Assembly: GCA_013696965.1 (NCBI GenBank)
Contig: JACCXN010000022.1
Coordinates: forward strand, 1 to 50,897
DNA from: Bacteroidota bacterium
Lineage (GTDB): Bacteria; Bacteroidota; Bacteroidia; JACCXN01
Direction: 5' to 3'
DNA length: 50,897 nucleotides
A program made the position numbers and the translations under genes. Below, piece after piece: positions 1 through 27,300 of the stretch; the first letter of the stretch is position 1; each line of letters starts with the position of its first letter. The notes under the pieces are model-generated. The model was given only the letters and a program-made list of their open reading frames with translations. It was not told the DNA's origin and made no database searches.

Positions 1-1650
1 GCCGGTGATAAAGAGTATAAAGCCCCATCAAACAAAGAAGAAGAGGCTCTTACAGAAGTCTGGAAAGAAGTTTTGGGTGCAAAACAATTGAGTGTGGATT
101 CTAATTTTTTCTCTTTGGGAGGAGATTCAATAAAAGCAATTCAGGTTGCATCTAAGCTAAAGAAGTTTGGATATAAACTGGATGTGAAAGATCTTTTTCA
201 GCAATTAACCATTGAAAATATAGCGCCCCTGTTAAAGCAGGATCAATTGAAAGCTGAGCAGGGACCGGTTGAAGGAGAGGTTTTCTTAACACCGATTCAG
301 CATTCGTTTTTCCAGGAGCAGCTTGCTGAGCCGCAGTATTATACCCAGGGTGCAGTGCTTTTTTTAAAGAACAGGTTCAATCATCAGTTGCTTGAAAATA
401 CCCTTGCAAAACTCACGGAGCAGCATGATGTTTTAAGGATGAGATTTGAAAAAGAAGGGGAGAAGGTAAAACAGATAAATACCGGCTTGCAAGGCAAACA
501 TTTTACTTTAGATATTGCAGAGATCGACTCTTTAGATACAAAACAGCAAATAAAGCAAAGCGCGGAGGAAGTACAGCGAAATTTAGACCTGGAAAAAGGC
601 CCGCTTTTAAAAGCAATTCTTTTTAAAGCTCCGGAAGGCGATCATTTGCTGCTGGTTATCCATCATCTTGTTATAGATGGTGTTTCCTGGAGAATATTGA
701 TGGAGGATTTTATGATGTTCTACCAATCTGCAATGCAAAATCAATCTGTAGCATTGCTTCCAAAAACTACTTCTTACAAAGAGTGGGCAGATCAGCTTTT
801 AAATTATGCCAATAGTGATGATTTATTAAAAGAAATTGATTTTTGGAAAAAGCTTGAAACAAACGGAGTATTTAAACTTCCAAAAGATAATACCTCGGCA
901 GAAAATCTGTATAAACATAGTAAAGACATAAGTCTTAAATTATCAAAAGAAGAGACGGCAGATTTACTAAAAAACACCAACCACGCATATAACACTGAGG
1001 TAAATGATCTTTTATTAACCGCTCTTGGGCTTGCAGTTAAAGAATGGTCAGGAACAGGAAAGGTTTTAATTAACCTCGAAGGGCACGGAAGAGAAGATTT
1101 ATTTAATAATTTAGATATCACAAGAACTGTAGGATGGTTTACTTCTCTTTATCCTGTTTTGCTTGAAGCTTCTTCAGAGGATCTTTCTCTTTGTATTAAA
1201 ACTACCAAGGAAATGTTACGGAAGATTCCAAACAAAGGCATTGGTTATGGCATTTTAAAACATATTACATCTGCTGATTTAAAACAAGGACTACAGCTAA
1301 ATCAAAAGCCTGAAATTAGTTTTAATTACTTGGGGCAGTTTGACGATCAGGAGAAATCAGATTTTGAAATAACACCTCTAACGCTTTCAGAAACTGTTAG
1401 TCCTGAAAACAAAAGAAGCTGTTCTATAGATATAAATGGAATGGTGATAGGCGGAGAACTGACTATGGAATTTTCCTACAGCTCGGAAGAATACAGGGAA
1501 CAAACTATCAGCAGCCTGGTAAATGCCTACAAAATTCACTTACAGAACATAATCAATCATTGTATTAATAAAGAAGAAACTGAGATCACCCCAAGCGATT
1601 TAAGTTATTCCGATATAGCCCTTGACGATTTAGAAAATATTTTTGGATAA
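1..1650 (+). CDS. NRPS, C-terminal part (T-E), 5' end outside window
   Basis: The frame is open from base 1, so the gene starts upstream; the TTG at 73 lies inside the carrier domain and is not a start. Codons 1-75 are a thiolation domain (FFSLGGDSIKA; phosphopantetheine Ser codon at 127). Codons about 90-510 are an epimerization domain: HHLVIDGVSW near codon 221, EGHGRE near codon 360, then a TVGWFTSLYP motif and FNYLGQFD. The catalytic His and Glu are present, so it should convert the last tethered residue to a mixture from which the D form is taken. The last 20 residues (acidic, ending DDLENIFG) look like a donor docking tail, as is usual after E domains. The stop codon is directly followed by the ATG of the next NRPS, whose first C domain is DCL type, consistent with transfer of a D-residue. 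Residue identity is unknown because the A domain is upstream. Confidence 0.96.
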   Translation, partial: AGDKEYKAPSNKEEEALTEVWKEVLGAKQLSVDSNFFSLGGDSIKAIQVASKLKKFGYKLDVKDLFQQLTIENIAPLLKQDQLKAEQGPVEGEVFLTPIQHSFFQEQLAEPQYYTQGAVLFLKNRFNHQLLENTLAKLTEQHDVLRMRFEKEGEKVKQINTGLQGKHFTLDIAEIDSLDTKQQIKQSAEEVQRNLDLEKGPLLKAILFKAPEGDHLLLVIHHLVIDGVSWRILMEDFMMFYQSAMQNQSVALLPKTTSYKEWADQLLNYANSDDLLKEIDFWKKLETNGVFKLPKDNTSAENLYKHSKDISLKLSKEETADLLKNTNHAYNTEVNDLLLTALGLAVKEWSGTGKVLINLEGHGREDLFNNLDITRTVGWFTSLYPVLLEASSEDLSLCIKTTKEMLRKIPNKGIGYGILKHITSADLKQGLQLNQKPEISFNYLGQFDDQEKSDFEITPLTLSETVSPENKRSCSIDINGMVIGGELTMEFSYSSEEYREQTISSLVNAYKIHLQNIINHCINKEETEITPSDLSYSDIALDDLENIFG

Positions 1651-10600: not shown

Positions 10601-13600
10601 CATACGTAATATCAAGTAAATCACTTGATTCAACCGAGCTAAGAAACCACCTGTCAAAGCACTTGCCTGAGCATATGATTCCTGCAGTATTTGTTCAGCT
10701 GGAGAAATTTCCAATGACACCAAGCGGTAAAGTTGATAGAAAAGCTTTGCCTGCACCTGATGAAACGGCCCTTTCTTCCTCAACTGTTTATGTTGCCCCT
10801 AGAAATACAACAGAAGAAAAACTTGCTCAAATGTGGCAGCAATTACTGGATGTTAAGCAGGTTGGCGTTACGGATAACTTTTTTGAATTGGGCGGACATT
10901 CTCTTAAAGCCTCCTCTTTTGTTGCAAGAGTTAATAAAGAATTTCAGCGAAATCTGCCGTTAAAGCAAATCTTTATAACACCGACAATTGAGGGAGTTGC
11001 AGCATATATTGAAAAATCCTCAAAGAGTGCTTTAAATACATTAATTTCAGTAGGAGGTGCCGGTAAATATCCTGTATCTTCCGCACAGATGCGACTCTTC
11101 CTGCTCAACCAGTTTGACCCGGAAAGTACTGGTTATAATATGCCGAATGTGATGGAGGTGCACGGAAGGATTGACAGGCAAAAGGTGGAAGCAATATTTC
11201 AGATGTTAATCAGTAGACATGAATCCCTGCGTACATCTTTTGAAATGTCCGGTACTGAATTGTTACAGAAAGTAGGGGAAGAAGTTTCCTTCAACCTGGA
11301 AAAGATAGAAACCTCGGTTGAAGATGCAGAGAAGGCAATTAGCAGATTTATCCGACCTTTCGATTTGTTACAGGCCCCACTTTTAAGGGCAGGGCTGGTT
11401 TCTATCACAGAAGATCATTTTCTGCTGCTTTTTGACATGCATCACATTATTTCTGATGGAACTTCAATGCAGTTAATAACAACAGATTTTATAAAATTAT
11501 ATCGCGGTGAAGCACTTGAGCCTCTTGCAGTGCAATACAAAGACTATGCAGTATGGCAAAAAGAATCATATAAAAATGAAAGGCTGCTTAAGGAGGAAAA
11601 ATACTGGCTCGATAAATTCGAAGATCTGCCCGAGGTGCTCGAACTTCCTTATGATCTGCCGCGACCGAGAGAGCAAAGTTTCCGGGGCGACAGAGCAGAG
11701 GCGGTTATTGACAAAGAACTGCTCAATAAATTCAAAAACCTTCTTCAGCAGAATGAGGTCACACTTTACATGGGCCTGCTTGCCGTGTACAACATTCTCT
11801 TAGCGAAATACAGCGGACAGGAAGATCTAATTGTAGGTTCACCGGTGGCTGGTCGTAATCATCCCGGTTTGGAACCTGTACTGGGCATGTTTGTCAATAC
11901 GCTTGCTATTCGTAACCAGCCTGCAAAAAATAAAACCTTTAATCAGCTAATTGCAGAGGTTAAGGAAAATGCGCTTGATGCATTTGAAAATCAGGAATAC
12001 CCCTTTGAACAGCTTGTGGATAAGCTGAAGATTGAAAAAAACCTTGGTCGTAACCCTCTCTTTGATGTTACGCTCGTGCTGCAGAATATGGATACTGCGG
12101 ATCAGAATATTGAGGGAATTTCATTCAAGCCATACGACCTTAGAAACTATACCAGCAAATTTGATTTAACGCTTTCCGCATTAGAAGAGAGTGAAGGCCT
12201 GCTGCTGAACATGGAATATTCGACCGATTTATTTAAGCATTCTACAATAGAAAGAATGCTTAGGCATTTTGAACAGATCATTGCTGAAGTTGTTACTGAT
12301 TCCAACAAAACAATTGCTGCTATTAACCTGTTAACTTATGCGGAAACAAAGAAAGTAACTGAAGAATTTTCATGTATAAGGGCTCCATATCCAAAAGAAA
12401 AAACAATTGTTGAGCTATTTGAGGAACAGGTGCTGAAAACCCCTGACCTTTTCGCAATTTCTTTAGATGGCAATAAGCTAAGCTATGCCGAACTCAACAG
12501 GCGTGCTAATCAGATAGCTGCACAGCTTTTGAAAAAAGGGGTTAAGATGGATGAACTTGTTGCTATAATAACAAGCCGGTCTGTTGAAACAATCATAGGA
12601 ATGTTAGGTGTTCTTAAAGCGGGAGCGGGTTATGTACCGGTTGATGGGGATTATCCGGCTGAACGGATACAATTTATTCTTCATGATTGCAATGCCCGAG
12701 CGCTTTTAGTGAATGGGCAACTTCCTTCGGTTTCATTTGAAGGTGCAATCATTGACCTCTCTTCCGAATCAATTTACGATACGGATTATCCCAATCCATC
12801 AACAATAAGTGGTCCCCGAGATTTAGCATATGCTATTTACACGTCAGGTACAACAGGTCAGCCAAAGGGAGTGCTTGTAGAAAATCAGGCTGTTGTACGC
12901 CTTGTGAAAAATACCAATTATATTTCCATAAAGGAGGGAGACAAGCTGCTTCAGACAGGATCCATTTCCTTTGATGCTTCCACCTTTGAAATATGGGGAG
13001 CATTGCTCAACGGTGCTGAGCTTCATTTGTGCAGCCTGGATGATATGCTTGACCCTAAAAAACTCAAGTCCATCATAAATGAAAACAAAATAGATATTCT
13101 ATGGCTTACAACCTCTTTCTTCCATCAGCTTGCGGATGCACATATTGAAACTTTTTCAGGGCTAAATTATTTAGGATTTGGAGGTGACCGTTGTTTGACA
13201 CACCTTGTCAACAAAGTGAGGGATGCATATCCAGGAATGCAGCTAGTGCATTTCTACGGCCCTACGGAGAACACTACTTTTTCAACTGCGCATAATATTG
13301 TTGAAACATATCAAGGTGCTGTACCCATTGGTATTCCTATTGCCAACTCTGAGGTTTATATTCTGGACGATGAAAGAAAGGCAGTACCGATAGGAGTAAG
13401 AGGATATTTGTATGTTGGAGGAGACGGACTTTCCAGAGGTTACTTGAATAGACATGAACTTACCTCTGAAAAATTCGTTACGCATCCATTTAAGGACGGA
13501 AAAAAGCTATATTTTACTGGTGATATAGCCAGGTGGCTGGAAGATGGAACAATTGAATTTTTGGGTCGTGATGATCACCAGGTTAAAATTAGGGGCTTCA

Positions 13601-16600
13601 GAATTGAATTGGGTGAAATAGAGCAGTGTCTTATGGAATGCTCTTATGTAAAACAGGCATCTGTGATTGACTGGAATCCGGAAAACAATAATAAGCAGTT
13701 GGTAGCTTATCTTGTTATGAGAGGAGAAGCAAATTTTGATCAGGTAAAAAAATATTTAAATGATAAGCTGCCTGAATATATGATTCCTGCATACTTTATG
13801 GCTGTAGAAAAACTTCCTCTTACCCGTAATGGTAAACTAGACAGGCGGGCACTTCCAGAACCAGTTATGGAAGAAACTGGCAAGGTTAAATTTATTGTAC
13901 CAGCAACAGAAATTCAGTTAAAAGTAGCTTCTGCATGGAAGGAGCTTTTAAAAATAGATCGGGTATGTATTAAAGATAATTTTTTTGATAAAGGTGGACA
14001 TTCGCTTAAAGCCGCACAACTTGTTTCACTAATAAGGGCTCAAATGGGTGTGGAAATTTCCTTGAGGGAAATATTCAGAAACCCTACTTTAGAAGGGATT
14101 GCCAATTTTATTGAAAAAGCAGAAGAAGTTAATAATGAAAGCATACCAACTTATCCTGAAAGTCCTTTTTATCCTGTTTCAGCTGCACAGCGCAGGATGT
14201 TTGTTATCAATCAATTTGAAGATAATAAAGGTACAGCCTATAATATTCCTTTTGCGCTAAGAGTAAAAGGAATAATTGATAAAACCAAACTGGAACAGGT
14301 ATTAAATCAGCTGATTCAGCGACACGAGATATTAAGAACAACTTTTGAATTAAGAGATGGAGAACCGGTACAGCTTGTTCAGGAAAATTTACTGCTAAAA
14401 CCTGAATATCTTAATGCATCTGAAAAGGAAATCGAACAAACAATTTATGCTTTTGTTCGTCCTTTCAATCTTTCTGAAGCTCAATTGGTCAGAGTGTCAC
14501 TGGTGAATATTGGAGACGAAGATAACCTCTTGCTTTTTGATATGCACCACATAATTTCTGATGGGGTTTCTGTGGAGATAATGGTAAAGGAATTCGTTTC
14601 GCTTTACAGTAATGAGGCCCTTGAGCCGTTAAAAATTCAATATAAAGATTTTGCAAATTGGCAGTTTGAGCAGTTTAATAACGGGGCTATTCAAAAGCAA
14701 CAGCAATATTGGGTAGAACAGTTTAAAGATGATGTTCCGCTGCTTGATTTGCCTACTGATTTTGCCCGTTCTGCAATACAGAATTTTTCAGGAGATAATG
14801 CAGGTGTTTTGCTGGATTCAGGTACTTCAGAAGAGATAAGAGCATTCTGTAAAAATAAAGGTGTAACACCTTATATGTTCTTTCTAAGCATTTACTACGT
14901 GCTGCTTCACCGCTACACCAATCAAAATGATATTGTTGTAGGTACAGCTGTTGCAGGTCGTTCACACGCTGACCTTCATTCTTTGATAGGTATGTTTGTA
15001 AATACACTTGCTTTAAGAAACCATCCAAATTCGACATCTGTTTTTGAGGATTTTTTAATTTCTGTTAAAGAAAATACTTTAAAAGCCTTAGATAACCAGG
15101 ATTATCCCTTTGAAGACCTTGTTGAACAAATCGAATTAAAGCGCGACATCAGCCGTAATCCTTTGTTTGATGTTTTCTTTAACTACCAGGTAAAACAGGA
15201 AGAGCAGTTTTTGGTAGATGGATGGGAAATTTCTGTTCCGGAATTTGAAAATAAAATAGCAAAGTTTGACTTAAAGCTGGACGTTCAGGAGCAGGAAAAT
15301 AATTTTGAAATTGAATTTTCTTTTGCCACAGAACTCTTTAAAAAAGACACAATTAATCAGTTGCTAAGGCATTTTACGAATTTACTTTCCGCTTCCCTGG
15401 CTGATCCCAAAAAGGCTTTAAATAAGCTCGAAATGCTCTCAGAGCAGGAGAAAGAAACCCTGCTTTATTCTTTCAATGATACCAAAGCTGCATTTCCAAG
15501 AAAAATGCTTCAGGAAATTTTTGAAGAACAGGTATTAAAAAGAGGGAATGATACTGCAATCATCTGGGATGGCGGAAGTATGAGCTATGATGAGCTGAAT
15601 AAAAAATCAAATAAACTGGCTCATCATTTAAGAATCAATTGCGGAGTTGAAAGAGAAGAAATAGTCGGTTTACTTGTGGACCGCAGTGAATGGATGCTGG
15701 TGGCTATTCTGGGAGTGCTTAAAGCCGGAGGTACTTACCTTCCGATTGATCCTGATTATCCAGAAGACAGAATCGGCTATATGCTTGAAGACAGTGGTTG
15801 CAAAATAATTGTTACCCGCTCAGATTTAAAAGATTTAATAAAAAATGAAATCCAGATAGTTCTTGCTGATGCTGAAGAAATCAAAGATCAGCCGGAGCAA
15901 AATTTACCTTTGGTTAATCAGCCAGATGATCGCTGCTATATTATCTATACTTCAGGTTCTACGGGCCGTCCCAAAGGTGTGCAGATAAGCCACCACAATG
16001 TGGTAAGACTGTTATTTAACGACCGTAATCTTTTTGATTTTAATGCTAATGATACCTGGAGCCTTTTCCATTCCTACTGTTTCGATTTTTCTGTATGGGA
16101 AATGTATGGAGCTTTATTGTATGGAGGGAAATTATTAATTGTTCCAAAGGAAACGGCTCAGAATCCACCTGAGTTTGTTGAGCTTGCAGCACGACATAAG
16201 GTAACGGTGCTTAATCAAACCCCCGGTGCTTTCTATAATTTCATCAGATCAGAGCAGGAGCGTGGTGAAAAAGATCCCCATTTACGATACATAATTTTTG
16301 GCGGAGAAGCCTTGCATCCTTCACGATTAAAAGGCTGGCACCAAAAATATCCTGAAGTAAAGCTGGTGAATATGTATGGAATTACAGAAACTACTGTTCA
16401 CGTAACTTATAAAGAAATTGGAGAAAAGGAAATAGCTGCCGGTATCAGTAATATTGGCATTCCTATACCAACACTAAGCTGCTATATAATGGATATGCAC
16501 CAAAATCTTCAGCCAGTTGGTGTCTCAGGTGAACTTTGTGTTGGTGGAGAAGGCTTATCCAAAGGGTATTTAAACAGAGAAGAACTTACTGCGGAAAAAT

Positions 16601-18672
16601 TCATTCCTCATCCATACATCAAAGGAGAGAAACTTTACCGCTCAGGTGACCTTGCAAAATGGCTTGATAACGGAGAACTTGAATACCTGGGAAGGATAGA
16701 CCACCAGGTAAAAATCAGGGGCTTTAGAATTGAGCTGGGTGAAATAGAAAAGGCAATCGATAACCATCCTGCAATTAAACAGGCTGTGGTAATAGATAGG
16801 GAAGATGAAAAGGGAGAAAAATATCTTTGCGCCTACATTGTAGAAAAAGATGGAAGTACTGTAACAACTTCACAAATGAGAGATCATTTAAGAAGTCCAC
16901 TTCCGGATTATATGGTTCCATCATTCTTCATTAAACTGGATGAAATACCGCTTACTTCTAACGGAAAAGTTGCAAGAAAAGAATTGCCATTACCCGGTGG
17001 AGTTGTTGATACCGGTGCTGAATATATTGCACCGCGAAATAAAACAGAACAGCAACTGGAGCAAATCTGGAGAGAAATTTTAAAAGTTAAAAAAATCAGC
17101 GTAAAAGATAACTTCTTTGATTTGGGAGGGCATTCACTAAAAGCAACACAGGTGCTGGCAAGAATAAGAGAGCAATTAAATGCCGGTGTTACTTTCCGAG
17201 ATTTATTTACTTATACTACCATCGAAGATCTTGCTTCTGTTATACAAAATAAAGGAGTGGTTAAGGGAATTCCGGGAATTATTTCATTGCCGGAACAGGA
17301 GTATTATTCGGCTTCTTTTGCACAGCAGCGCCTTTGGCTGATGAATAAAATTGAAGGAGCGGCTTCTGCTTTTAATATGCCAATGGCTTATGTGCTGGAT
17401 GGAGAACTAAATATCTCTGCTTTCAAAAAAGCTTTTGATACTTTAATTCAGCGTCATGAATCGCTCAGAACCACTTTTATTGCTGTAAATGGCGTACCAA
17501 AACAGAAAATTCACAAGCAGCTAAATTTTGCAATCAAAGAAGAAGATCTTTCAGCAAATCTTAATAAGAATGAGCTTGTAAAAGCTTATGCAGAAAATGA
17601 AGTTAAAACTGCCTTTGATTTAGAGAAAGGGCCATTATTAAGGGCTTCGCTGATTAAAATGGAAGCTGAAAAATTTATTTTCCTTTTTACAATGCACCAC
17701 ATTATAAGTGATGGCTGGTCTATGGGTGTGCTTACAAAAGAATTGTTTACCCTGTATGATGCTTATTGTAGTAAAAAGGAAAATCCGCTGCAAGACCTCA
17801 AAGTGCACTATAAAGAATACGCTGCCTGGCAGGAAACCTTAATGGAAGCAGGAAATATTGAAATTTACAGAAACTACTGGAAACAAAAATTGAATAATAA
17901 TTTGCCTGTACTTGAGGTAAATATTGATTATTCACGTCCGGCTGTAAAAACTTTTAATGGAGCTTTCCATCGCTTTGTATTTTCTAATGAATTAACTGAA
18001 GCCATTAAGAAATCAGCTAAAGATTCAAATGTGAGTACTTTTGTGATGGTTCAGTCAATATTTAAAGTTATGCTTTACAAACAAACTGCGGAGGAAGATA
18101 TTATTATTGGAACACCTGTGGCCGGAAGGGTTCATAAAGATCTTGAAAATCAGATAGGGTTTTTCATTAATACTTTGCCTTTAAGAAATAAAATATCCTG
18201 GACGGATACTTTAAAGGAAGTTGTTGAAAGAGTTGGAAAAACTACCATTGAGGCTTACGAAAACCAACTTTATCCATTTGACAGAATGGTGGAAGATTTA
18301 AAGGTTAAGCGTGATGCCAGCCGTTCACCGATTTTTGATATTGGCATCACCTGGCAGGATTATGAGGATTTACAGAAAGACCAGGTAAATTCTATTACTA
18401 TTTCGAGCCTTGAAACTGAGCTGAAATTTGCAAAATATGACCTGTGGTTATATGGATTTGAAACAGAGGATGGCATTGATTTCAGTTTTGAATTTAACAC
18501 AGACTTATACAAGAAGTCTACCGTAGAGAACCTTTCAGAACAACTGATTAAAATAGCAAATGAATTTGCTTCAGGTTTAAATAAACAGATTTCAGATATT
18601 GAACTGGAAGAAAAAACCGCTAATGTGGCTAATGAAAACACTTCTGAAGCATCATTTGATTTCAATTTTTAA
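1651..18672 (+). CDS. Five-module NRPS, (C-A-T)x5-C
   Basis: The 5673-residue protein starts at an ATG touching the upstream stop. C1 opens with YPLSLMQEGMLFH and has HHHILMDGW near residue 142, a DCL pattern. Other C motifs lie near 1189, 2221, 3264, 4299 and 5349; the C domains before A3 and at the C-terminus carry HHI(V/I)SDGWSM, a different subtype from the HHIISDG(V/T)S of C2, C4 and C5. A3-motif cores (TSGSTG or TSGTTG) lie near 612, 1652, 2689, 3728 and 4763. Carrier serines are 1009, 2035, 3084, 4118 and 5162. Codes I extracted by aligning to GrsA positions, taking Lys for the last: A1 DVQTISQVVK (Pro-like, weak), A2 DVDEWGGITK (acidic pocket, perhaps a basic residue), A3 DSHQKTSLTK (unassigned), A4 DAFWGGFTFK (Val-like), A5 DFWNIGMVHK (Thr, strong). 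It ends with a complete C domain and no A, so its last condensation uses the residue loaded on the next protein. Confidence 0.97.
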   Translation: MISKQNLKDLYPLSLMQEGMLFHALLETQSTAYFEQTSYLIKGNLDIEIFKYSLNELFKRHDVLRTVIVHKKVARPLQVVLKELEAAFYFEDLRQQSPEEQKKAISEFCEKDVVKGFNLSEDVLMRLAVLQTADDAWRVVWSHHHILMDGWCVGILLQEFMELYRAKKAGRAARLSKPIPYSTYIKWLEKQDKKSASEYWKEYVAGYEGQTVLPELSKTSKSAYQRAQVSLKFDTETTAKLEGLAKKNGVTLNTLLQACWAILLQKYNSSDDVVFGAVVSGRPTEIDGVESMVGLFINTLVVRVACGEDETLSQLLKKMQQQAGASDAHAYFPLAEVQSFTTQRQNLINHILVFENYPLQQELQQISDPESGYTIGDVELFEQTNYNLTVMIMPGKEIAVHFDYNAAVFSTVVMDQLKTHFFAVVTQALANTDVSVAAISIISEKEKQQILQDFNATTVTYPKQSVLELFEEQVLKTPGKVAVVFDDKSLSYQQVDKLSDKLASYLLNNYKIQPEEIIGVMPERSEQVLVCLLGILKAGGVYLPIDPNYPQERIEHMLEDSRVKVLLSEEKFKAQLSFYKGKIVEITSLANYPDNEEKPAPFQLPRADQLAYIIYTSGSTGKPKGVACTHRCLYNLMEWQLRESGIGGGLTSIQYASLSFDVSVQEMLYNVISGGTMHVIDNDMRQDMNRLALLLDEKQIELLTLPFSALNLLFSVNKDLHKIKSLKHIITSGEQLQLSAGIKEFLLKRPDVYLHNQYGPSETHVVTSYSLCGKDNLSETLPPIGKPIANTTAYILDKAGNPVPVGVAGELYLGGVQVARGYLNRQDLTAEKFLPNPFTPGEVFYKTGDLAKWLPDGNIMFLGRIDGQVKIRGFRIELGEIESNLLNHPEIIEAAVIVKEIHSGVKELAAYIVAQKELSLNEIRKYLGKSLPEYMIPAYFSSLEKLPLSPNGKVDKRALPEPEGGLATGTEYVEPSTETEKQLALIWQELLGVEKIGLKDNFFDLGGHSLKATMLVSRIHKALDKEVPLREVFALPTIGQLSAFIENSGTQKFSSIQPAEKKEFYPLSSAQKRMFVLNSFEGVGTSYNISGVFKLVGEIDINQFETAVKETINNHEILRTSFKLIENEAVQIIHQELDFRVVKINCSEIELPEILDNFIQPFDLSQAPLIRIALINLEQEEYVLATDIHHIISDGVSIQLLLEEICQRYEGVFSASKVLEYKDFSSWQFDNLSNEGFSEHKKYWKNKFSEDVNRADLPADFERPASQSFEGDLLKISLKQDDAALIKNLTERNGITPYMFFLSVFYAFIHRYTRQNDICIGTPVSGRTHKDLQNIQGMFVNTLPLRNQVNPAGAFEELLSNTKNEVLDTLKYQDYPFEELLLQLQLEKDTSRNPLFDYMFSFLEDVTADFSTKDFKVKHLESTDHKTSMFDLSLEVLKTGENYTLCWEFCTRIFKKQTVENFAAHYLNLLKVFLQDEKLKISEAGILSECEIKHQLNILSGGATKPFDLTWLDLFNNVVESYPDKTALIRNNNEISYRELNEKANALAHKLIEGGVGAEQVVALRMKSSPEFIYSVIGILKAGAAYLPIDIEYPADRALYMLDNSGAKVLITSPDFASDISFSGSSLEANAELFNGKKENPEARCTADNMAYILFTSGSTGKPKGVITEHRGIANYVDVLPKLLGLTSEDTFVQHASVSFDVSVDEIFCSLGIGATLILPNDRKNLDELIDIVESGKLTFYEGTPLILSYINENAITKGNLKKVWVGGDTLKLSDCKKLLPEIEIINGYGPTEASITASWYTLNGDEKEIPIGKPIPNYRLFVVDNNLNLMPEGAIGELCIGGIGLAREYLNSPELTKEKFTFLKQTDERIYRTGDLVKWLPDGNLAFLGRIDNQVKIRGQRIELGEIENKLEAIENISQVAVIDKTNAEGSKYLVAYYVSEKEISSEIIRKNLTASLPDYMVPAHFVRLEKLPKTANDKLDRKALPEPFSVIKRKEYKAPSTELEKAACEAFKTVLKASLIGVEDNFFDCGGDSLKAMILSSVINKALGIKLGIEVIFKNPTPGEIAAIAATLGKSDYKEISQVPEQEYYQLSPSQTRLWLLDKIHGNSVDYNMADLFTFNEAVKPHILEKAFDTVVQRHEAIRTNFVEIEGQPKQKINQALSFKLNMLDFSNEVNSKAKTELLYKNECDFVFDLSKDLLLRATLVKEKENTWHLIFNIHHIVSDGWSMNIFKNELVALYRAFESEQENPLAPLRIQYKDYASWQQEQIVGSNLHALKNYWHKVLEGELPVMELPYDFSYAHAKKGSGSRYSFVLDNELKNKLNKLALSSNSSLFMVLLSGFNILLQRLSNTQDIIIGTPVAGRGHEDLKRLIGFFLNTVVLRNQVSAELNIEEYLKAVKENTLQALENQDYPFEQLVDDLKIPRDINRFPITSVFFNMLNLDGENHGDLAESKSSFEHHNNKVKFDLNVYASEYNNGLQLTLEYKNELFLPQTIEAFSEKFKQILEQLAEDSSVAVKDISTHITKNTPLPYQEVEWYKDELTVPEVLQNCFKKYASNVAFKTAATEFKYSDLNEISNQLARHLSKFGTKQRVAICLEHNEFLAVAITGVLKSGNAYVPIDPAYPVSRLKFIVEESQPVAIITDKANKSLANELLNKNSICLDESEAAYLLESAEDFIVKVNAEDEAYVLYTSGSTGQPKGVSQTHKGILHFASIYAAAIGITAEDKLSGFSSVCFDSFNHELFPALFSGASYLPLSLKSGITINELSDWTNENKITVWQSVPTVFRQFADEVTEKNIVLSGIRILKMTGEASTREDFEKFKKITNALATFVVSYGSTENSLTTINLFTHNSAVTKAALPAGNAVNNTDIIILNSSGKTADALEAGEVILHSPGLTKGYLNIVENDKIFVTIENKKYYKSGDIGRLNLSGQLEILGRKDGQVKIRGMRIELSEIEAGLLAYPEVKLAAATISENNDGLKRLVAYVISSKSLDSTELRNHLSKHLPEHMIPAVFVQLEKFPMTPSGKVDRKALPAPDETALSSSTVYVAPRNTTEEKLAQMWQQLLDVKQVGVTDNFFELGGHSLKASSFVARVNKEFQRNLPLKQIFITPTIEGVAAYIEKSSKSALNTLISVGGAGKYPVSSAQMRLFLLNQFDPESTGYNMPNVMEVHGRIDRQKVEAIFQMLISRHESLRTSFEMSGTELLQKVGEEVSFNLEKIETSVEDAEKAISRFIRPFDLLQAPLLRAGLVSITEDHFLLLFDMHHIISDGTSMQLITTDFIKLYRGEALEPLAVQYKDYAVWQKESYKNERLLKEEKYWLDKFEDLPEVLELPYDLPRPREQSFRGDRAEAVIDKELLNKFKNLLQQNEVTLYMGLLAVYNILLAKYSGQEDLIVGSPVAGRNHPGLEPVLGMFVNTLAIRNQPAKNKTFNQLIAEVKENALDAFENQEYPFEQLVDKLKIEKNLGRNPLFDVTLVLQNMDTADQNIEGISFKPYDLRNYTSKFDLTLSALEESEGLLLNMEYSTDLFKHSTIERMLRHFEQIIAEVVTDSNKTIAAINLLTYAETKKVTEEFSCIRAPYPKEKTIVELFEEQVLKTPDLFAISLDGNKLSYAELNRRANQIAAQLLKKGVKMDELVAIITSRSVETIIGMLGVLKAGAGYVPVDGDYPAERIQFILHDCNARALLVNGQLPSVSFEGAIIDLSSESIYDTDYPNPSTISGPRDLAYAIYTSGTTGQPKGVLVENQAVVRLVKNTNYISIKEGDKLLQTGSISFDASTFEIWGALLNGAELHLCSLDDMLDPKKLKSIINENKIDILWLTTSFFHQLADAHIETFSGLNYLGFGGDRCLTHLVNKVRDAYPGMQLVHFYGPTENTTFSTAHNIVETYQGAVPIGIPIANSEVYILDDERKAVPIGVRGYLYVGGDGLSRGYLNRHELTSEKFVTHPFKDGKKLYFTGDIARWLEDGTIEFLGRDDHQVKIRGFRIELGEIEQCLMECSYVKQASVIDWNPENNNKQLVAYLVMRGEANFDQVKKYLNDKLPEYMIPAYFMAVEKLPLTRNGKLDRRALPEPVMEETGKVKFIVPATEIQLKVASAWKELLKIDRVCIKDNFFDKGGHSLKAAQLVSLIRAQMGVEISLREIFRNPTLEGIANFIEKAEEVNNESIPTYPESPFYPVSAAQRRMFVINQFEDNKGTAYNIPFALRVKGIIDKTKLEQVLNQLIQRHEILRTTFELRDGEPVQLVQENLLLKPEYLNASEKEIEQTIYAFVRPFNLSEAQLVRVSLVNIGDEDNLLLFDMHHIISDGVSVEIMVKEFVSLYSNEALEPLKIQYKDFANWQFEQFNNGAIQKQQQYWVEQFKDDVPLLDLPTDFARSAIQNFSGDNAGVLLDSGTSEEIRAFCKNKGVTPYMFFLSIYYVLLHRYTNQNDIVVGTAVAGRSHADLHSLIGMFVNTLALRNHPNSTSVFEDFLISVKENTLKALDNQDYPFEDLVEQIELKRDISRNPLFDVFFNYQVKQEEQFLVDGWEISVPEFENKIAKFDLKLDVQEQENNFEIEFSFATELFKKDTINQLLRHFTNLLSASLADPKKALNKLEMLSEQEKETLLYSFNDTKAAFPRKMLQEIFEEQVLKRGNDTAIIWDGGSMSYDELNKKSNKLAHHLRINCGVEREEIVGLLVDRSEWMLVAILGVLKAGGTYLPIDPDYPEDRIGYMLEDSGCKIIVTRSDLKDLIKNEIQIVLADAEEIKDQPEQNLPLVNQPDDRCYIIYTSGSTGRPKGVQISHHNVVRLLFNDRNLFDFNANDTWSLFHSYCFDFSVWEMYGALLYGGKLLIVPKETAQNPPEFVELAARHKVTVLNQTPGAFYNFIRSEQERGEKDPHLRYIIFGGEALHPSRLKGWHQKYPEVKLVNMYGITETTVHVTYKEIGEKEIAAGISNIGIPIPTLSCYIMDMHQNLQPVGVSGELCVGGEGLSKGYLNREELTAEKFIPHPYIKGEKLYRSGDLAKWLDNGELEYLGRIDHQVKIRGFRIELGEIEKAIDNHPAIKQAVVIDREDEKGEKYLCAYIVEKDGSTVTTSQMRDHLRSPLPDYMVPSFFIKLDEIPLTSNGKVARKELPLPGGVVDTGAEYIAPRNKTEQQLEQIWREILKVKKISVKDNFFDLGGHSLKATQVLARIREQLNAGVTFRDLFTYTTIEDLASVIQNKGVVKGIPGIISLPEQEYYSASFAQQRLWLMNKIEGAASAFNMPMAYVLDGELNISAFKKAFDTLIQRHESLRTTFIAVNGVPKQKIHKQLNFAIKEEDLSANLNKNELVKAYAENEVKTAFDLEKGPLLRASLIKMEAEKFIFLFTMHHIISDGWSMGVLTKELFTLYDAYCSKKENPLQDLKVHYKEYAAWQETLMEAGNIEIYRNYWKQKLNNNLPVLEVNIDYSRPAVKTFNGAFHRFVFSNELTEAIKKSAKDSNVSTFVMVQSIFKVMLYKQTAEEDIIIGTPVAGRVHKDLENQIGFFINTLPLRNKISWTDTLKEVVERVGKTTIEAYENQLYPFDRMVEDLKVKRDASRSPIFDIGITWQDYEDLQKDQVNSITISSLETELKFAKYDLWLYGFETEDGIDFSFEFNTDLYKKSTVENLSEQLIKIANEFASGLNKQISDIELEEKTANVANENTSEASFDFNF

Positions 18673-18678
18673 AGGATT

Positions 18679-21600
18679 ATGATTAAAAATATCGATAAAG
18701 CACATTTTATATCTAAAGAATATAAGCCATTCCTGGAGTTCTGGCAAGGGAGACTTAAGCTTGTTGAAAACGGATTTTCCTTTGGAAATAAAATTTCAAC
18801 TGCTGAAACTGCTGTTTATGCAGAACAGCAGATAGTATTGGATAAAACTACTTCTGATCTTTTAATTAGCCTTGTAAAAGGTAGTGACACAGGTGTATTT
18901 GTGACGCTTTTAACCGGCTTTTTCAGCTTGCTTTCCCGTTATACCGGTGAGGCAACAATTATTGTTGATACACCGATATTCAATAATATTAATGGCGATC
19001 ACTTTTCAGATAAAATATCATTAATTAAGCAAGTTGAGCAGGAAAAGAGCATTAAGGATTTGCTCATCGGTATGCAGCAGATTACCACCGAAAGTTATAA
19101 ATATCAGAATTTTCCTGTTGCTGCAGTTCTTGGAAATAATTTAGAAGCTTTAACTAATGTTGCAGCTTCATTTACCAATATTCACCCAATCCATATTAAT
19201 GAAACTAACTATGATTTGTTGCTGGATATTAAGAGGAGCGGAGATGAGATATCCATAATTTTTAAATATAATACCAATGTTTTTGAATCCTGGTTTATTA
19301 ATAATCTCTCAAACCATTATCAAAACATTTTAGCTTCATTCTTCGGATTAAATACACTTTTAAAGGACATTGTGCTTCTTTCAAACACTGAAAGAGTGCA
19401 GCTTTTAAAAGAATTCAATGATACTTCCTGTAAATATCCCGATAAACTGATTCACGAATTGTTTGAGGAGCAGGTTTTAAAAACCCCGGATAACATTGCC
19501 CTTATTTGTGATGGTAAACAGTTTTCTTACCGCGAGCTTAACGAGAAATCCAATCAGCTTGCACATTTTATTAAAGAAAAATTTAATGTTAAGGCCGATG
19601 ATATAATAGGATTATTAACAGACAGAAGTGAAGGGATGATTGTTTCTATTCTTGCTGTTTTAAAAGCAGGAGGAAGTTACCTTCCCATAGATCCTGCGTA
19701 TCCTGCAGACAGAATTAGTTATACCCTCTCTGACAGTGGTTGTAAGTTTGTTTTAACAAAACAGCAGTACAAAAATCTAATTCACAATGACATTGCTGTG
19801 GCTGGTATTGAAGATGAAGAGATACATTCTTTTCCTGTTTCAAATCCTGAATATATTAATAAGCCTGATGATCTTTGCTATATCATTTATACATCCGGAT
19901 CTACAGGAAATCCCAAGGGTGTGATGATTCAGCATTACAATGTGGTGAGGTTGCTTTTCAATGAGCAAAATCTTTTTGATTTTAACGAGAAAGACGTTTG
20001 GTCGCTGTTCCATTCCTATTGTTTTGATTTTTCTGTATGGGAAATGTATGGAGCATTGTTGTTTGGTGGCAAGCTTGTGATTGTACCAAAGCAAATTGCT
20101 CAGAATCCTTCTGATTTTGTGGAGTTGGTAAGAAATGAGCAGGTTACAATCCTCAATCAAACCCCCGGCTCTTTTTATAATTTTATAAATGAAGAAATAA
20201 ATTCATCATCTAAAGAACTTAAACTACGCTATGTGATTTTTGGAGGCGAGGCTCTGCATCCGGCAAGGTTAAGCCAATGGAGGAAAAAGTACCCGGAGAC
20301 AAAGCTTGTTAATATGTATGGTATTACAGAAACTACCGTACACGTAACCTATAAAGAAATTACCAAAAAGGAAATTGATGCTGCAATCAGTAATATTGGT
20401 GTTCCTATTCCTACCCTGAGTTGTTTTGTACTTGATAAATTTCAGAATCTGCAGCCAATAGGTGTTGCAGGTGAGCTTTGTGTTGGAGGAAAAGGGCTTG
20501 CGCGTGGTTATCTAAACAGGGCTGAACTAACCCGGGAGAAGTTTATAGATAATCCTTTTGTAGCGGGAGAAAAACTTTATCGCTCAGGTGATCTTGCTAA
20601 ATATTTGCCTAATGGTGAACTGGAATACCTTGGAAGAATTGATCACCAGGTAAAAATCAGGGGTTTCCGAATTGAACTTGGTGAGATTGAAAACTGCTTA
20701 CAAAAGCACCCATCAATAAAAGAATCAGTAGTAATAGATCGAACAGATGAAAAGGGAGAGAAATATCTTTGCGCGTATATTGTTGGATCAACAGAATCTG
20801 CTATAAACAGTGGAGAGCTGCGTGAATACTTAAAGCAAAGCTTACCGGATTATATTATCCCTGCCTGGTTTATTCCAATGGACAATATTCCATTAACAGG
20901 TAATGGTAAGGTAAATCGCAAAGCACTTCCTCAGCCTGAAACACAATTCACAGGTGCAGCCTATGTAGCCCCTCGTAATCAAATAGAGGAGGAGCTTGTG
21001 AAAATCTGGCAGGAAGTTCTTGGAATAGAGAAAATAGGAGTACAGGATAATTTCTTTGACTTAGGTGGACATTCATTAAAAGCAGCACAACTTATAGCCA
21101 TCGTCCATAAAGAGATGGAGGTAGAAGTGCCTTTTGCATTTATCTTTAATACACCTGTGGTTGAAAATATGGCTGAATATATTTCTTCAGCAGGAAAAAC
21201 CAAATATGCAGCCATACGTCCTGCCGAAAAAAGAGCCTTTTACCCACTCTCTGCAGCCCAAAGAAGAATGTACATTTTAAATGAATTTAAAGGAACCGGG
21301 ACTACTTACAATATGCCGGGCGTTCTTTCAATTGAAGGAAATCTTAATATCTCTAAAGTTGAAAACGCTTTTCAACAGCTTATAGCAAGACAAGAGGCAT
21401 TCCGAACAACATTTGAATTTAAGGATGATAATGCGGTTCAAATTATCAATGAAGATGTTCATTTTAAAATTGAAGTAGAAGAGGCAAGTGAGGATAATAT
21501 AGAAGATCTGATTAAAGATTTTGTAAAGCCTTTTGATTTATCAAAAGCACCTTTGCTGAGAGTGAAGTTGTTGAAAATTAAGCTGGAGAAGTATATCCTG

Positions 21601-24324
21601 TTTTTTGATATGCATCATATCATTTCAGATGGAGTTTCAATGGAGATTCTTGTAAAGGAATTTTTTGCGTTTTATAAAGAGGAAGAACTTTCTCCGCTTG
21701 AAATACAATACAAAGATTTTGCTGTTTGGCAGGATGAGTTAACAAATACCGGTAAGCTTGAAAAGCTCGAAAATTATTGGCTGGAACGTTTTTCTGATGA
21801 TCTAACCCTTCTTGATTTTCCCCTTGATTTTCCACGGCCTGCAGTACAAAAATTTGATGGGGCACATATAAATTTTCAGCTAAGTTTAGAATTAACAGCT
21901 GCACTTAAGAAAATTGCCAGGGAAACCGGCACTACTTTGTATATGGTTCTTTTGGCTGCTTATAAGGTTTTGCTTTCCCGCTGGGCAAACCAGGAGGATA
22001 TTATAGTTGGTACCCCTGTAGCAGGCAGACCTGCCCCTGAGTTGCAAAATATCATAGGTGTTTTTATAAACACACTGGCTTTGCGTAATTCGGTTGCTTC
22101 AGATAAATCTTTTAAAGAATTTTTAGGAGAACTAAAGCAAAAAGTACTGAAAGATTTTGAGCACCAGGAATATCAGTTTGAAAATCTAATTGATAAGTTA
22201 AAGTTAAAGCGTGATACAAGCCGCAATCCATTGTTTGATACAATGTTTACTTATGGTGAAGCAGATGAACAGCAGTTGAAAATTGACGGGCTTGAAATCA
22301 ATCAATATTCCTTTGAAAACAAGAGTTCGAAATTTGATATAACCTTTGGTGGAGCAGAAAAAGAAAATCAAATTTGCATAGCTATTGAATACAGCACAAA
22401 TCTTTTTAAAGAGACGACAATTAAAAGATTTTCAAATCATTTCACCAACATAATTTCAGAGATTGCAATTAATCCTGCAATTAAAATTAAAGACATAGCG
22501 CTTTTATCCGATGCTGAAAAACAGCAGGTGCTGGTTGATTTTAACCAGACTGCAGCAAGTTTCCCAACAGGGAAAACTGTGCACGAGCAAATTGATGAGC
22601 AGGCCGAAAAAACACCTGATAACATTGCACTTGTTTTTGGAGAGAAACAACTTTCGTATAAAGAACTGAAAGAAACAACAGGGAATTTAGCCCAGGTTTT
22701 AAGGGCAAAAGGAGTAAAGCGTGGCGATGTTGTTTCCATTATTTCCTCGCCTTCAAACGAGCTGATGATAAGCATTTTTGCAATTTTAAAAGCCGGGGCT
22801 GCTTATTTGCCAATTGATCCATCTTATCCTGCTGAAAGAATTTCCTATATGTTAAGGGATAGCAATTCAAAAGTACTGCTTACTGATTTGGAGTCAGAAA
22901 TGGTGGATGATTTTAAAGGCGTTTTAATCAATATTAAACAGCAGGAAATCTACCAGGGCAATGGTGTTTGCAAAAATATAAATACAGTAGATGACTCAGC
23001 TTATATAATTTATACTTCAGGTTCTACCGGGCTTCCAAAAGGAGTTGTGGTGCAACATAAAGCCCTGAACAACCTCATTCACTGGCACAACAAGTATCAC
23101 CAGCTAACAGAACAAGACAAGGGTACTAAATATGCTGGTTTTGGATTTGATGCGTCAATCATTGAAACATTCCCTTACTTTGTGAAGGGAGCAGCGCTTC
23201 ATATACTACCTGATAACCTGCGCCTGGACCTTGTGAGGCTGAATCAGTATTTCGAACACAATAACATCACTATCGCTTTTCTTCCCACACCAGTGGCAGA
23301 GCAGTTTATCTTTTTAGAAAATAAGAGCTTAAGGGTACTTAATATTGGAGGAGACAAACTGTCGAAATGGAACCCGACCCCATATAAAATCATAAACAAT
23401 TATGGGCCATCTGAATTTACCTGCGTTACCTCTGTGTATGATGTTAACCAAGCATATGCTAATATCCCAATAGGCAAGCCTGTTTCCAATTCCCGGGTTT
23501 ATGTGCTGGATGCTAATTACAAGCCGCAACCAATTGGCGTAAAAGGAGAAATTTTTGCTTCCGGAGCCAATCTTGCCCAAGGATATTTACATCAGCCGGA
23601 GTTAACTTCAGAAAAGTTTATTCCAGATCCATTTAATCCCGGGCAGTTGATGTACCGCACAGGAGATATAGGCCGATGGTTGCCTGATGGAAACCTTGAG
23701 TTTTTTGGCAGAACCGACCACCAGGTAAAAATAAGAGGATTCAGGATTGAGCTTGGTGAAATACAATCTATTTTGCAAACCCATCCTTACATTACAAAAG
23801 CTGTAGTTTTGGATAGAAAAGATGAGGAAGGAAATAAATTTTTGTGTGCGTACATTGTTGCAAATCAGGAAATTTCCCCTGCTGACCTTCGCCAGTACCT
23901 AGGCAAACAATTGCCGGAATATATGGTTCCTGCTTATTTTATTGAACTGGAGGATTTGCCTCTTACTCAAAATGGGAAAACAGACCTTAATAAACTCAGG
24001 GAAATCAAACTCGAAGGGAATATTATTACCACCGCTGAATTTGTTCCGCCTTCTACCGAAACAGAAGAGAAACTGGTAAAAATATGGCAGCAGGTGCTTA
24101 AAATGGATACAATCGGTATCAAAGACAACTTCTTTGAACTGGGAGGAAATTCGCTAAAAATTGTCAAGCTATTAAAATCGATTGAGGATGTATTTCCAGG
24201 AGCAGTGGAAATTAGTGATTTGTTTGATAAATCAACAATCGAACAGCTTGCAGCGCTTGTTGACAGCAAAAATAATACTTCTGCTGAAACAGAAAAACAG
24301 GAAATCAGAGTAGTTGATTTTTAA
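18679..24324 (+). CDS. Two-module NRPS with N-terminal half condensation domain, c'-A-T-C-A-T
   Basis: The 1881-residue protein starts 6 nt after the previous stop, with AAAGG just upstream of the ATG. Residues 1-240 match only the C-terminal lobe of a condensation domain (FLEFWQGRL entry, then a YKYQNFPV segment and the FNDT exit into A); there is no HHxxxDG lobe. A6 (core near 400) reads DFWNIGMVHK, a Thr code, and is strikingly similar to A5 of the previous protein, with the same CFDFSVWEMYG and MYGITETTVHVT blocks. T serine is 799. A full C domain follows (HHIISDGVS near 979). A7 (core near 1442) reads DAIFNGNCVK, related to the Leu code DAWFLGNVVK but with Ile at 239, Asn at 299 and Cys at 330, so its substrate is uncertain. 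The last T serine is 1825 in GGNSLK. It hands its chain to the KS of the next protein. Confidence 0.97.
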   Translation: MIKNIDKAHFISKEYKPFLEFWQGRLKLVENGFSFGNKISTAETAVYAEQQIVLDKTTSDLLISLVKGSDTGVFVTLLTGFFSLLSRYTGEATIIVDTPIFNNINGDHFSDKISLIKQVEQEKSIKDLLIGMQQITTESYKYQNFPVAAVLGNNLEALTNVAASFTNIHPIHINETNYDLLLDIKRSGDEISIIFKYNTNVFESWFINNLSNHYQNILASFFGLNTLLKDIVLLSNTERVQLLKEFNDTSCKYPDKLIHELFEEQVLKTPDNIALICDGKQFSYRELNEKSNQLAHFIKEKFNVKADDIIGLLTDRSEGMIVSILAVLKAGGSYLPIDPAYPADRISYTLSDSGCKFVLTKQQYKNLIHNDIAVAGIEDEEIHSFPVSNPEYINKPDDLCYIIYTSGSTGNPKGVMIQHYNVVRLLFNEQNLFDFNEKDVWSLFHSYCFDFSVWEMYGALLFGGKLVIVPKQIAQNPSDFVELVRNEQVTILNQTPGSFYNFINEEINSSSKELKLRYVIFGGEALHPARLSQWRKKYPETKLVNMYGITETTVHVTYKEITKKEIDAAISNIGVPIPTLSCFVLDKFQNLQPIGVAGELCVGGKGLARGYLNRAELTREKFIDNPFVAGEKLYRSGDLAKYLPNGELEYLGRIDHQVKIRGFRIELGEIENCLQKHPSIKESVVIDRTDEKGEKYLCAYIVGSTESAINSGELREYLKQSLPDYIIPAWFIPMDNIPLTGNGKVNRKALPQPETQFTGAAYVAPRNQIEEELVKIWQEVLGIEKIGVQDNFFDLGGHSLKAAQLIAIVHKEMEVEVPFAFIFNTPVVENMAEYISSAGKTKYAAIRPAEKRAFYPLSAAQRRMYILNEFKGTGTTYNMPGVLSIEGNLNISKVENAFQQLIARQEAFRTTFEFKDDNAVQIINEDVHFKIEVEEASEDNIEDLIKDFVKPFDLSKAPLLRVKLLKIKLEKYILFFDMHHIISDGVSMEILVKEFFAFYKEEELSPLEIQYKDFAVWQDELTNTGKLEKLENYWLERFSDDLTLLDFPLDFPRPAVQKFDGAHINFQLSLELTAALKKIARETGTTLYMVLLAAYKVLLSRWANQEDIIVGTPVAGRPAPELQNIIGVFINTLALRNSVASDKSFKEFLGELKQKVLKDFEHQEYQFENLIDKLKLKRDTSRNPLFDTMFTYGEADEQQLKIDGLEINQYSFENKSSKFDITFGGAEKENQICIAIEYSTNLFKETTIKRFSNHFTNIISEIAINPAIKIKDIALLSDAEKQQVLVDFNQTAASFPTGKTVHEQIDEQAEKTPDNIALVFGEKQLSYKELKETTGNLAQVLRAKGVKRGDVVSIISSPSNELMISIFAILKAGAAYLPIDPSYPAERISYMLRDSNSKVLLTDLESEMVDDFKGVLINIKQQEIYQGNGVCKNINTVDDSAYIIYTSGSTGLPKGVVVQHKALNNLIHWHNKYHQLTEQDKGTKYAGFGFDASIIETFPYFVKGAALHILPDNLRLDLVRLNQYFEHNNITIAFLPTPVAEQFIFLENKSLRVLNIGGDKLSKWNPTPYKIINNYGPSEFTCVTSVYDVNQAYANIPIGKPVSNSRVYVLDANYKPQPIGVKGEIFASGANLAQGYLHQPELTSEKFIPDPFNPGQLMYRTGDIGRWLPDGNLEFFGRTDHQVKIRGFRIELGEIQSILQTHPYITKAVVLDRKDEEGNKFLCAYIVANQEISPADLRQYLGKQLPEYMVPAYFIELEDLPLTQNGKTDLNKLREIKLEGNIITTAEFVPPSTETEEKLVKIWQQVLKMDTIGIKDNFFELGGNSLKIVKLLKSIEDVFPGAVEISDLFDKSTIEQLAALVDSKNNTSAETEKQEIRVVDF

Positions 24325-24398: not shown

Positions 24399-27300
24399 AT
24401 GAAAGATATAGCCATAATAGGAGTAGCCGGGCGTTTTCCGGAAGCAAAAAACATTGATGAACTTTATCATAATTTAAAAGCGGGCAAAGACAGTTCACGT
24501 CCTTTATCTAAAGAAAGGTTAAAGTCAACTACTTCAGCGGTAAATAAAAAATATAAAGTTTTTGCCTGGCTAGATGATGTTGATAAATTTGACCACAAGC
24601 TTTTTAATATATCTCTTGCTGAGGCTCAGAATATGGATCCTCACCAGCGCTTAATGCTGGAAGTGGCCTATGAAACATTCGAAAGTTCCGGTTATAGCAT
24701 TGATCATTTTTTTGGCTCAAATACGGCTGTTTATGCAGGGGATGTAATACTGAAATATTGGGAGCTTGCAGAGAAATATGATCCTACACTATTCACCGGA
24801 AATATAAATGCAGCTACAGCAGGACGAATAGCACGTTTTTTTAATCTTCGCGGCAGTGCAATGATGATTGATACCAACTGTTCCTCAACTCTTGTGGCAA
24901 CTCATTTGGCATGTAATGAACTTGCTGCTGGCGATGCCGGTCATGCACTTGTTTGTGGAGTAAGAATAGTAATTAAACCCGAGGAAGAGGAAGGTGGTGC
25001 TGATTTGGGTATCATGACTCAGGACGGTAAAACAAAATCTTTTTCTGCCGCAGCCGATGGCACCAGTGCAGGAGAAGCTGTTGCTGCTGTGCTTTTAAAA
25101 CCTTTGGATAAGGCTCTTGCCGATAATGATATTATTTATGCAGTAATTAAAGGTTCTGCTTTAAATCAAGATGCCCAGTTATCGGGTAGCCTTACCGCAC
25201 CAAGCAGTGCTGCACAGGCTGAGGTTATTTGCAAAGCCTGGAAAAAAGCGGATATTGATCCGCTAACAATATCCTACATTGAACCTCACGGAAGTGGAAC
25301 TAAACTCGGAGATCCGATAGAAATTCAAGGAATTGACCAGGCATTTAAAGGCTTAACCGATAAAAAGAATTTTATTTACGCCTCTGCATTAAAGTCAAAT
25401 ATAGGCCACACAGACACAGTTGCTGGCCTATCAGGATTAATTAAAACTGTTCTTTCCCTTAAAAATAAAGAATTATTTCCAACTCTTCATTTTGATGCAC
25501 CTAACCCATTTATAGATTTTAAAAACTCAGTTATTGCCATAAATACCCAGTTAAAGAAGTGGGATGTGCCAGAGGGGCAGCCACGAAGGGCAGGAGTAAG
25601 TTCATTTGGGCTTAGCGGAACTAATTGTCATATTATTTTAGAGGAAGCTCCCGAAAGAAAAGCTTCAGCAACCACCGATGAAAAAGCCTGGTTAATAAAT
25701 ATTTCATCACGAAACACAAAAGTGTTTGCAGCAAATCTTCAGGAATTAAAAAGATTTATTGAAGAAAATCCAACTACTTCAATTGCCGATATTAGCCATA
25801 CTTTAAACCGTGGCAGAAAACACTACAACTACAGGTTTTCGGTGCTTTGCAAAAATATAGAATCTATAAAAGAGGCAATAGAGAACTTCTTACCAAATCT
25901 ATCAAATGAGTTTAAAGCATCAAAAGAATTAAAAAAACTGTTCTTTATATTCTCTGACAATACCGGAACAGATGAAGGTTTAATAAATCATTTTATTTCT
26001 AGATATCCTTCTTTCACTGAAGATTATGAAGCTTGTTTAAGGGCTGCATCAGGAATTGAGAATGAAAACATTAAAACTTTTGCTTTTCAATTTGCTTATT
26101 ACAAATTATTTGAAAAATGCGGAATAACATCTCCAAATGTAATGGGTATTGGCTTGGGAAGAGCTGTTATTGACGTAATTACCGGAGGTAAAACCTTAGA
26201 AGATGCATTGAAAACTGTAGTTGATTGTAAACAAACTGCAGTAGAGGAATTAAATAAAAGATTAACAGCGCTTGTTGAAAGAGAAGCTGCCAAGGAGAAA
26301 GTTGCTTTTATTGAAATAGGAACAGCCGGAACGCTGATAGGTGGATTGAAAAATTTAAACTTAGAAAATCAGGAAAATATTTTTGAAGTTTTTGATTTAA
26401 ATGACAATAATGAAGAAGTTTTAAAAGAATTTTTCAGCTCACTTTATCTTTCAGGGTATAATGTTAACTGGCAAAAAGCACATCCTCAAAATTCAGGTCA
26501 AAAAATTAAATTGCCAGCCTATAAGTTTGAGCCCATACGATGCTGGGTGAAAGAGCCGGTAGATGAAAATGATGAAGAATTACAAATTGATATAAATGCC
26601 AAAAATCAGCAGGAAAAAGCAGTTGCAGAAAACTCTGAATTTGTTTCCAATGTGAAAATTGATGAAAGCTGGACACCTATTGAGCAAAAAATAGCGCTAC
26701 TGTGGGTGGAGGTTCTTAAATTAGAAGAAATTGCCTTAGATGATGATTTCTTTGATATAGGAGGGCATTCCCTTATTGCAACACAAATAATCAGCAGGAT
26801 TGAGAAAGTGTTTCAGGTGAAGATTGAATTCACTGATATGTTTGATTATCCTACCATAAGAACACTTGCAGAGGAGGTAGAAAAACAGTCGGAGGTACAG
26901 TTAAAAGATGAGACTGAAAAAGAACCGACAACTTCTCCGACTCAATTACACTATCCACTTTCTGCTGCTCAAAACAGGCTTTGGGTATTAGATCAATTAG
27001 AAGGGGGAGGGACAACCTACAACCTTCCGGGGGTAATGATTCTGGAGGGTAAATTAGATAATCCAAAATTTAAAAAGTCCTTTCAGAAGTTGGTTGAAAG
27101 ACACGAGAGCTTACGTACTTCCTTCCATACCGAAAATGGAGATTTAGTGCAGCTGGTTAATCAACAGGTAGAATTTAAAATTACTTATAAAACAGCTGAA
27201 GAAAGCCAACTCGATAAAATTGTAAATGATTTTGTAAGACCTTTTGATTTATCGAAAGCACCGCTATTTAGAATTGAGCTGGTTGAAATAAATAAAGAAA

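Follow-up and report, generated by a model that had tools for sequence, protein, structure and literature searches.

An unusual junction between two NRPS subunits of a Bacteroidota bacterium raises the question of why a protein should begin with half a condensation (C) domain directly after a protein that ends with a complete one. The window, i.e., the whole stretch of 50,897 nucleotides that was analyzed, encodes an upstream NRPS subunit of 5673 aa (1651-18672) with the domain order (C-A-T)x5-C, a downstream subunit of 1881 aa with an ATG start (18679-24324, forward strand) and the order half C-A-T-C-A-T, and after it a third protein (24399-36917) with the order KS-T-(C-A-T)x3-TE. As stated in a preliminary description of this DNA, the upstream subunit ends in a complete C domain (17296-18609, forward strand), which matches Pfam Condensation positions 2-447 with 362.8 bits and carries HHIISDG (about 17695-17715, forward strand) within MHHIISDGWSM. 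It is followed by a linker and C-terminal tail ending in SFDFNF-COOH (18610-18669, forward strand), a putative donor docking peptide, and by the TAA stop (18670-18672, forward strand). The 1881-aa protein opens on the same strand with the C-terminal lobe of a C domain alone (18679-19407), a putative acceptor docking domain, which precedes an A domain (AMP-binding, Pfam PF00501, residues 262-612; 19462-20514, forward strand) and the first carrier (T) domain (Pfam PF00550, residues 772-835; 20992-21183, forward strand). The last C domain of the upstream subunit thus has no acceptor module within the same polypeptide, just as the 1881-aa protein has no C domain for its first module, and the two proteins complement each other in a C|A split. 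Given colinear order, the upstream final C domain would find its acceptor carrier in the first T domain of the downstream subunit. The gap between the TAA stop and the ATG at 18679 amounts to 6 bases and leaves no room for a hidden N-lobe.

Residues 1-243 of the 1881-aa NRPS correspond to the second lobe of a C domain only. Their match to Pfam Condensation (PF00668; 456 positions) falls into two segments, 188-278 and 335-456, which together score 54.9-55.2 bits (cut-off 30.6 bits); no position before 188 is matched, so that the N-terminal lobe is missing. In a custom C-domain HMM they cover positions 180-433 of 434. HHxxxD was absent in 22 of the 22 half lobes checked, as were C5 (GxFxNT) and C7 (RDxxRxP), the window's half lobe included. 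The profile matches agree with the preliminary description, which had placed a second C lobe of about 240 residues without HHxxxDG at the head of this protein. Both its homology to the C-terminal lobe and its predicted fold link the window half lobe to the condensation domains.

An AF2 model of residues 1-760 (pLDDT 86.3, pTM 0.83) displayed an intact C-lobe and A domain, the blocks of the C-lobe mostly reaching about 90 pLDDT apart from a segment of low confidence at 36-42. VIA-align matched the model to LgrA (9meh; Z 53.1, 643 residues, 2.6 A) and EntF (5ja1; Z 51.9, 743 residues, 3.0 A), and both matches span the two domains, beginning at the second lobe of the C domains of LgrA and EntF. 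Since these alignments run across the C-lobe and the A domain, the model suggests that the C-A platform is kept between half lobe and A domain, the latter being predicted to pack on the half lobe as in canonical C-A didomains. Among solved structures, a sequence search found none of a half lobe on its own.

What the preliminary description had not recorded is the tail of the upstream partner. All identified partners of half-lobe subunits, bar a LEENF variant described below, carry a short hydrophobic C-terminal peptide 7-21 residues past the final C domain, with the consensus [F/I]x[F/I][N/D/E]F-COOH, i.e., hydrophobic, alternating and with a free C-terminus; in the window it reads FDFNF (18655-18669, forward strand). 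Where the two genes are adjacent, the tails are SFDFNF in the window, LFNFNF in G334, SFNFNF in G626, SFNFNF and DFDIDFF in G762, INIEINF on contig C12 of G330, FDYDFNF-NKKP and STQFNF in Fulvivirga marina, and SFNFEF in a Cytophagales MAG. In the non-adjacent cases we found FDFDFNF (G475, G388, G533, G430, G559), LDFDFNF (G435, G431), SDFDFNF (G479, G261), FDFEFNF (G451, G478), LDFEFNF (G561), SFDFDF and IEINFNF (G490), IGFNF (G293), IGLNF (G550, G512) and IDIDFNF (G434), together with LDFDFNF and ISFNF on contig C13 of G330 and TDFDFNF on the second starter of its contig C12. HHxxxD is retained in the tailed final C domains that were examined, with one exception that has NHxxxD (G330, C13). 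The subtypes of the two elements co-vary, tails of the types IG[FL]NF or IDIDFNF occurring with IAK[ED]YW half lobes and FD[FE]FNF tails with SKYWKKK. When the tail was tethered to the half lobe through a three-residue linker, AF2 returned a disordered tail (pLDDT under 50) and no docking pose from a 13-row alignment without tail homologues.

The association of tail and half lobe was assessed at adjacent junctions, where the tail accompanied a half lobe in 9/9 cases and was found at 0/11 C-ending junctions without a half lobe (Fisher p = 6e-6, to be taken as an index because relatives are not independent). The numbers of half lobes and tails also match within genomes (4/4 in G330, 2/2 in G490 and 2/2 in G762), and it is from such matching numbers that tails were tentatively assigned to half lobes in the non-adjacent cases. 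In further genomes where a search turned up a half lobe, the tail expected from it was then found (L240, twice; L242; G261; G293; G330, C12). The reverse search, with the first C domain of an FDFNF-tailed starter, located the missing tailed partner in G478 and also led to half lobes that earlier scans had missed in G434, G512 and on contig C13 of G490. A starter homologue in G560 that runs on past its C domain lacked a tail of this kind, and no half lobe came to light in that genome. In G567 the tail LDISFDF is present, and the NRPS contigs of this genome are broken. In these AT-rich genomes the DNA pattern F[ND]F[ND]F-stop turns up roughly as often as a reversed control and is useless alone. 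None of its matches spot-checked in four genomes ended an NRPS gene, a check that is no clean negative control since G434 and G512 later yielded half lobes with the tails IDIDFNF and IGLNF. A few C|A junctions have no half lobe; in these the A domain begins at residue 14-30 and the tails read LLEDY, SKDF and ESMFNQ, so the half lobe is not obligatory.

About 30 N-terminal half lobes ahead of A domains were found in Bacteroidota by sequence and profile searches, and each has a tailed-C partner subunit in the same cluster or genome. Named carriers are Fulvivirga marina (two), Spirosoma utsteinense (= G626) and the Cytophagales MAG. The gene clusters of the relatives were reconstructed from their DNA. 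The architecture of the window is shared by the Spirosoma-type genomes G334 and G626, G762 (two junctions), F. marina (two), the Cytophagales MAG and contig C12 of G330. A direct half-lobe search of 99 relatives gave a match in the own genome only, and in a phylum-wide draw of 395 genomes clear half lobes were present in at least five, among the top-scoring matches listed; the survey covered Bacteroidota, and the scan with a 3-row half-lobe alignment reaches near relatives only. The same split, for which the preliminary description had proposed a search in other Bacteroidota NRPSs, is therefore present there and not peculiar to the window; its absence from homologues, which that description would have taken as a refutation, was not observed.

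Partner genes lie apart in the genus of G330: the tail, of the FDFDFNF, FDFEFNF, IGFNF or a similar type, sits on a C-A-T-C subunit, and the half-lobe subunit is encoded at a different place in the cluster or on a separate contig. As partners are often many kilobases apart or on different contigs, physical splitting of one gene cannot explain the pairing. Most pairs in this genus descend from one ancestral pair, and the number of independent lineages is thus perhaps six to eight. Reading L241 with its frames joined gave no clean fusion. Between its two half-lobe subunits, the NRPS operon L026 on contig C13 of G330 also codes for a KamA-like aminomutase and for a protein resembling amidinotransferases.

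We propose that the half lobe and the FxFNF tail probably act as a docking pair of a new class, one that joins NRPS subunits split between C and A. The upstream subunit would retain a whole catalytic C domain and finish in the hydrophobic tail as donor peptide, and the downstream subunit would bear a catalytically dead C-lobe in place of the missing C domain, carrying the A domain on a normal C-A platform. The half lobe would be bound by the tail, probably together with the outer face of the upstream C domain, and binding is most simply pictured as an edge beta strand with a free C-terminal Phe. Docking would bring the first downstream carrier to the acceptor side of the upstream C domain, so that the chain could be handed on without a covalent C-A linker, and specificity would reside in the subtypes of tail and half lobe. 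The cognate C- and N-terminal elements co-occur, as is generally expected of docking domains. Of the two roles that the preliminary description had considered for the half lobe, that of a large docking module gains support from its recurrence with a matching C-terminal tail.

A further form of such an assembly, which we consider rather unlikely, is that the half lobe docked to the upstream full C domain yields a composite three-lobed condensation center, in which the acceptor side of the C domain would be completed or gated only by the right subunit and docking would be coupled to catalysis. A variant junction in G430 (stitched 65207-74835, L121), G550 (stitched 24421-49001, L182 and L134) and G512 (L278-L279) might then represent the same assembly in another form. 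In this variant a half lobe is fused behind the upstream full C domain, the tail is LEENF, and the downstream subunit opens with another divergent half lobe; an aminotransferase-like gene lies between the two subunits in G430 and G550. The LEENF variant falls outside the simple tail/half-lobe model and hints at lobe-lobe contact.

The C-A platform kept in the AF2 model would also be consistent with a half lobe that serves as a structural platform only, the A domain requiring a C-A interface for stability or substrate gatekeeping, with no docking and the tail otherwise employed. A comparable role has been suggested for ThdA, where a truncated C* may modulate A-domain selectivity (PMC7253712). 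However, a platform alone leaves unexplained why half lobes and tails on other proteins correspond one to one, and subunits that start with a bare A domain occur in the same genomes. We therefore regard an exclusively structural role as distinctly unlikely, and the half lobe may act as a platform in addition to docking.

The preliminary description had alternatively suggested the scar of a recombination in which the original C domain was replaced and a foreign one (GWSM subtype) came to lie at the end of the upstream subunit. On this reading the half lobe would be what is left, without function, of the replaced domain. The half lobe is indeed degenerate relative to active C domains (55 bits), and modules have been duplicated at this locus. 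The last A domain of the upstream subunit and the first A domain of the 1881-aa protein are close paralogues; the C-lobe+A stretches of these two modules (14695-17022 and 18679-20958) are 52% identical, compared with 26-35% for the other modules of the window, which suggests a module duplication across the split. A scar is nevertheless hard to reconcile with about 30 subunits whose half lobes are open, folded, conserved in length, members of one family and paired with tails, often with the partner gene non-adjacent. In a 48-row mixture-model tree all half lobes were separated from all full C lobes (96/96), the N-terminal half lobes alone formed one group (88/75), and the window half lobe was the sister of a Fulvivirga half lobe (91/81) and did not group with any C domain of the window. 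A single origin of the half lobes is thus favored from these sequences and not proven, because several half-lobe branches are long and could attract each other. The tailed C domains are spread over several C lineages (6 changes), which fits a docking cassette joined to different C domains and speaks against separate local scars. The upstream final C domain of the window groups with C3 of the same protein (97/81) and is therefore not obviously foreign. With this kinship and the recurrence of the arrangement in many genomes, neither the foreign C domain nor the scar finds support, and we consider the latter very unlikely.

Truncated N-terminal C domains have been reported in starter modules, as in ThdA of the thermoactinoamide pathway, where a truncated and probably inactive C* before the A domain opens the assembly line (PMC7253712). 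The window subunit resembles ThdA in having an incomplete, presumably inactive C domain directly ahead of the A domain at the protein N-terminus, and the 1881-aa protein might likewise begin a chain of its own. In contrast to ThdA, which has no upstream partner, the half-lobe subunits have one with a conserved tail. The upstream subunit ends with an active-looking C domain that lacks its own A-T, the half-lobe module lacks its own C, and the same holds in other clusters. On contig C13 of G330 the half-lobe subunits appear, from the presumed order, to be the second and third of three. An inert starter domain is thus highly improbable.

A sequencing or assembly artefact, i.e., a false TAA dividing one protein, has practically no chance of being correct: both ORFs do share one frame across a single stop, but a fused protein would still hold a full C domain, FDFNF and a half C domain, and in the relatives the two genes stand apart and have a start each, being in different frames, at a distance of kilobases or on separate contigs. 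A sequencing error or missed start that joins a full C domain to the downstream protein was excluded by the same relatives and by the 6-base gap.

Among the known NRPS docking pairs, a review lists COM, PAX and betaHD, none of them at a C|A junction (PMC9113145). The betaHD, a small alpha-beta-beta-alpha-alpha domain, has been reported to precede C, E, Cy, TE, MT and other domains (PMC9113145). The pair proposed here resembles SLiM-betaHD docking in that a short C-terminal peptide of the upstream subunit would meet a larger folded N-terminal domain of the downstream one and subunit order would be set non-covalently. It differs in its donor, which follows a C domain, and in its acceptor, a C-lobe of 240 residues that stands ahead of an A domain. 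The about 70-residue alpha-beta-beta-alpha-alpha N-terminal domain that defines betaHD is not present, the N-terminus being the 243-residue C-lobe. In many of the clusters studied there are about 70-90 extra N-terminal residues before C domains, as well as acidic/hydrophobic T-tails (EIEKFYI, MKFFEI), and these look like betaHD docking at other junctions.

In COM docking, which serves E|C junctions, the acceptor forms part of a C domain that is complete and active (PMC12402864, PMC9113145). An acceptor made of condensation-domain elements is thus common to the COM (helix-hand) system and the half-lobe junction, whereas the latter is a C|A junction with an isolated dead lobe and does not qualify as COM. 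At positions 1-3015 of the window, a C-like domain with HHLVIDGVSWRIL closes the first ORF, whose tail is DLENIFG, and LYPLSLMQEGMLFH opens the protein after it. This resembles an ordinary E|C junction served by docking of the COM type, in which case two or more kinds of junction would be at work in the assembly line. At about 25896-26466 (residues 500-690 of a 4172-aa protein), the stretch after the KS, QFAYYKLFEKCGITSPNVMGIGLGRAVIDVITGGKTLEDAL, is acyltransferase-like with GIGLG in place of the usual GHSxG; no Pfam acyltransferase was reported in this stretch, which is possibly a dead AT remnant.

In the DHD docking of trans-AT PKS (KS|DH split modules), a disordered region of about 70 residues binds an active DH domain (PMC9113145). 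Docking within a module at an unusual junction, by a C-terminal appendage of an upstream catalytic domain, is common to both systems, but DHD docking has no pseudo-domain as acceptor. Truncated C domains are also described as degenerate insertions in a fungal NRPS (PMC4041764). No report of a half-C/FxFNF pair was found in the open-access literature.

None of the docking pairs in the review uses a repurposed lobe of a catalytic domain (PMC9113145). If the half lobe and the tail are indeed a natural, subtype-specific C|A pair, assembly lines could be split and recombined between C and A, and genome miners could order the subunits of Bacteroidota clusters whose genes are not colinear. Annotations of a "truncated, probably inactive C domain" would then become a predictable connection signal.
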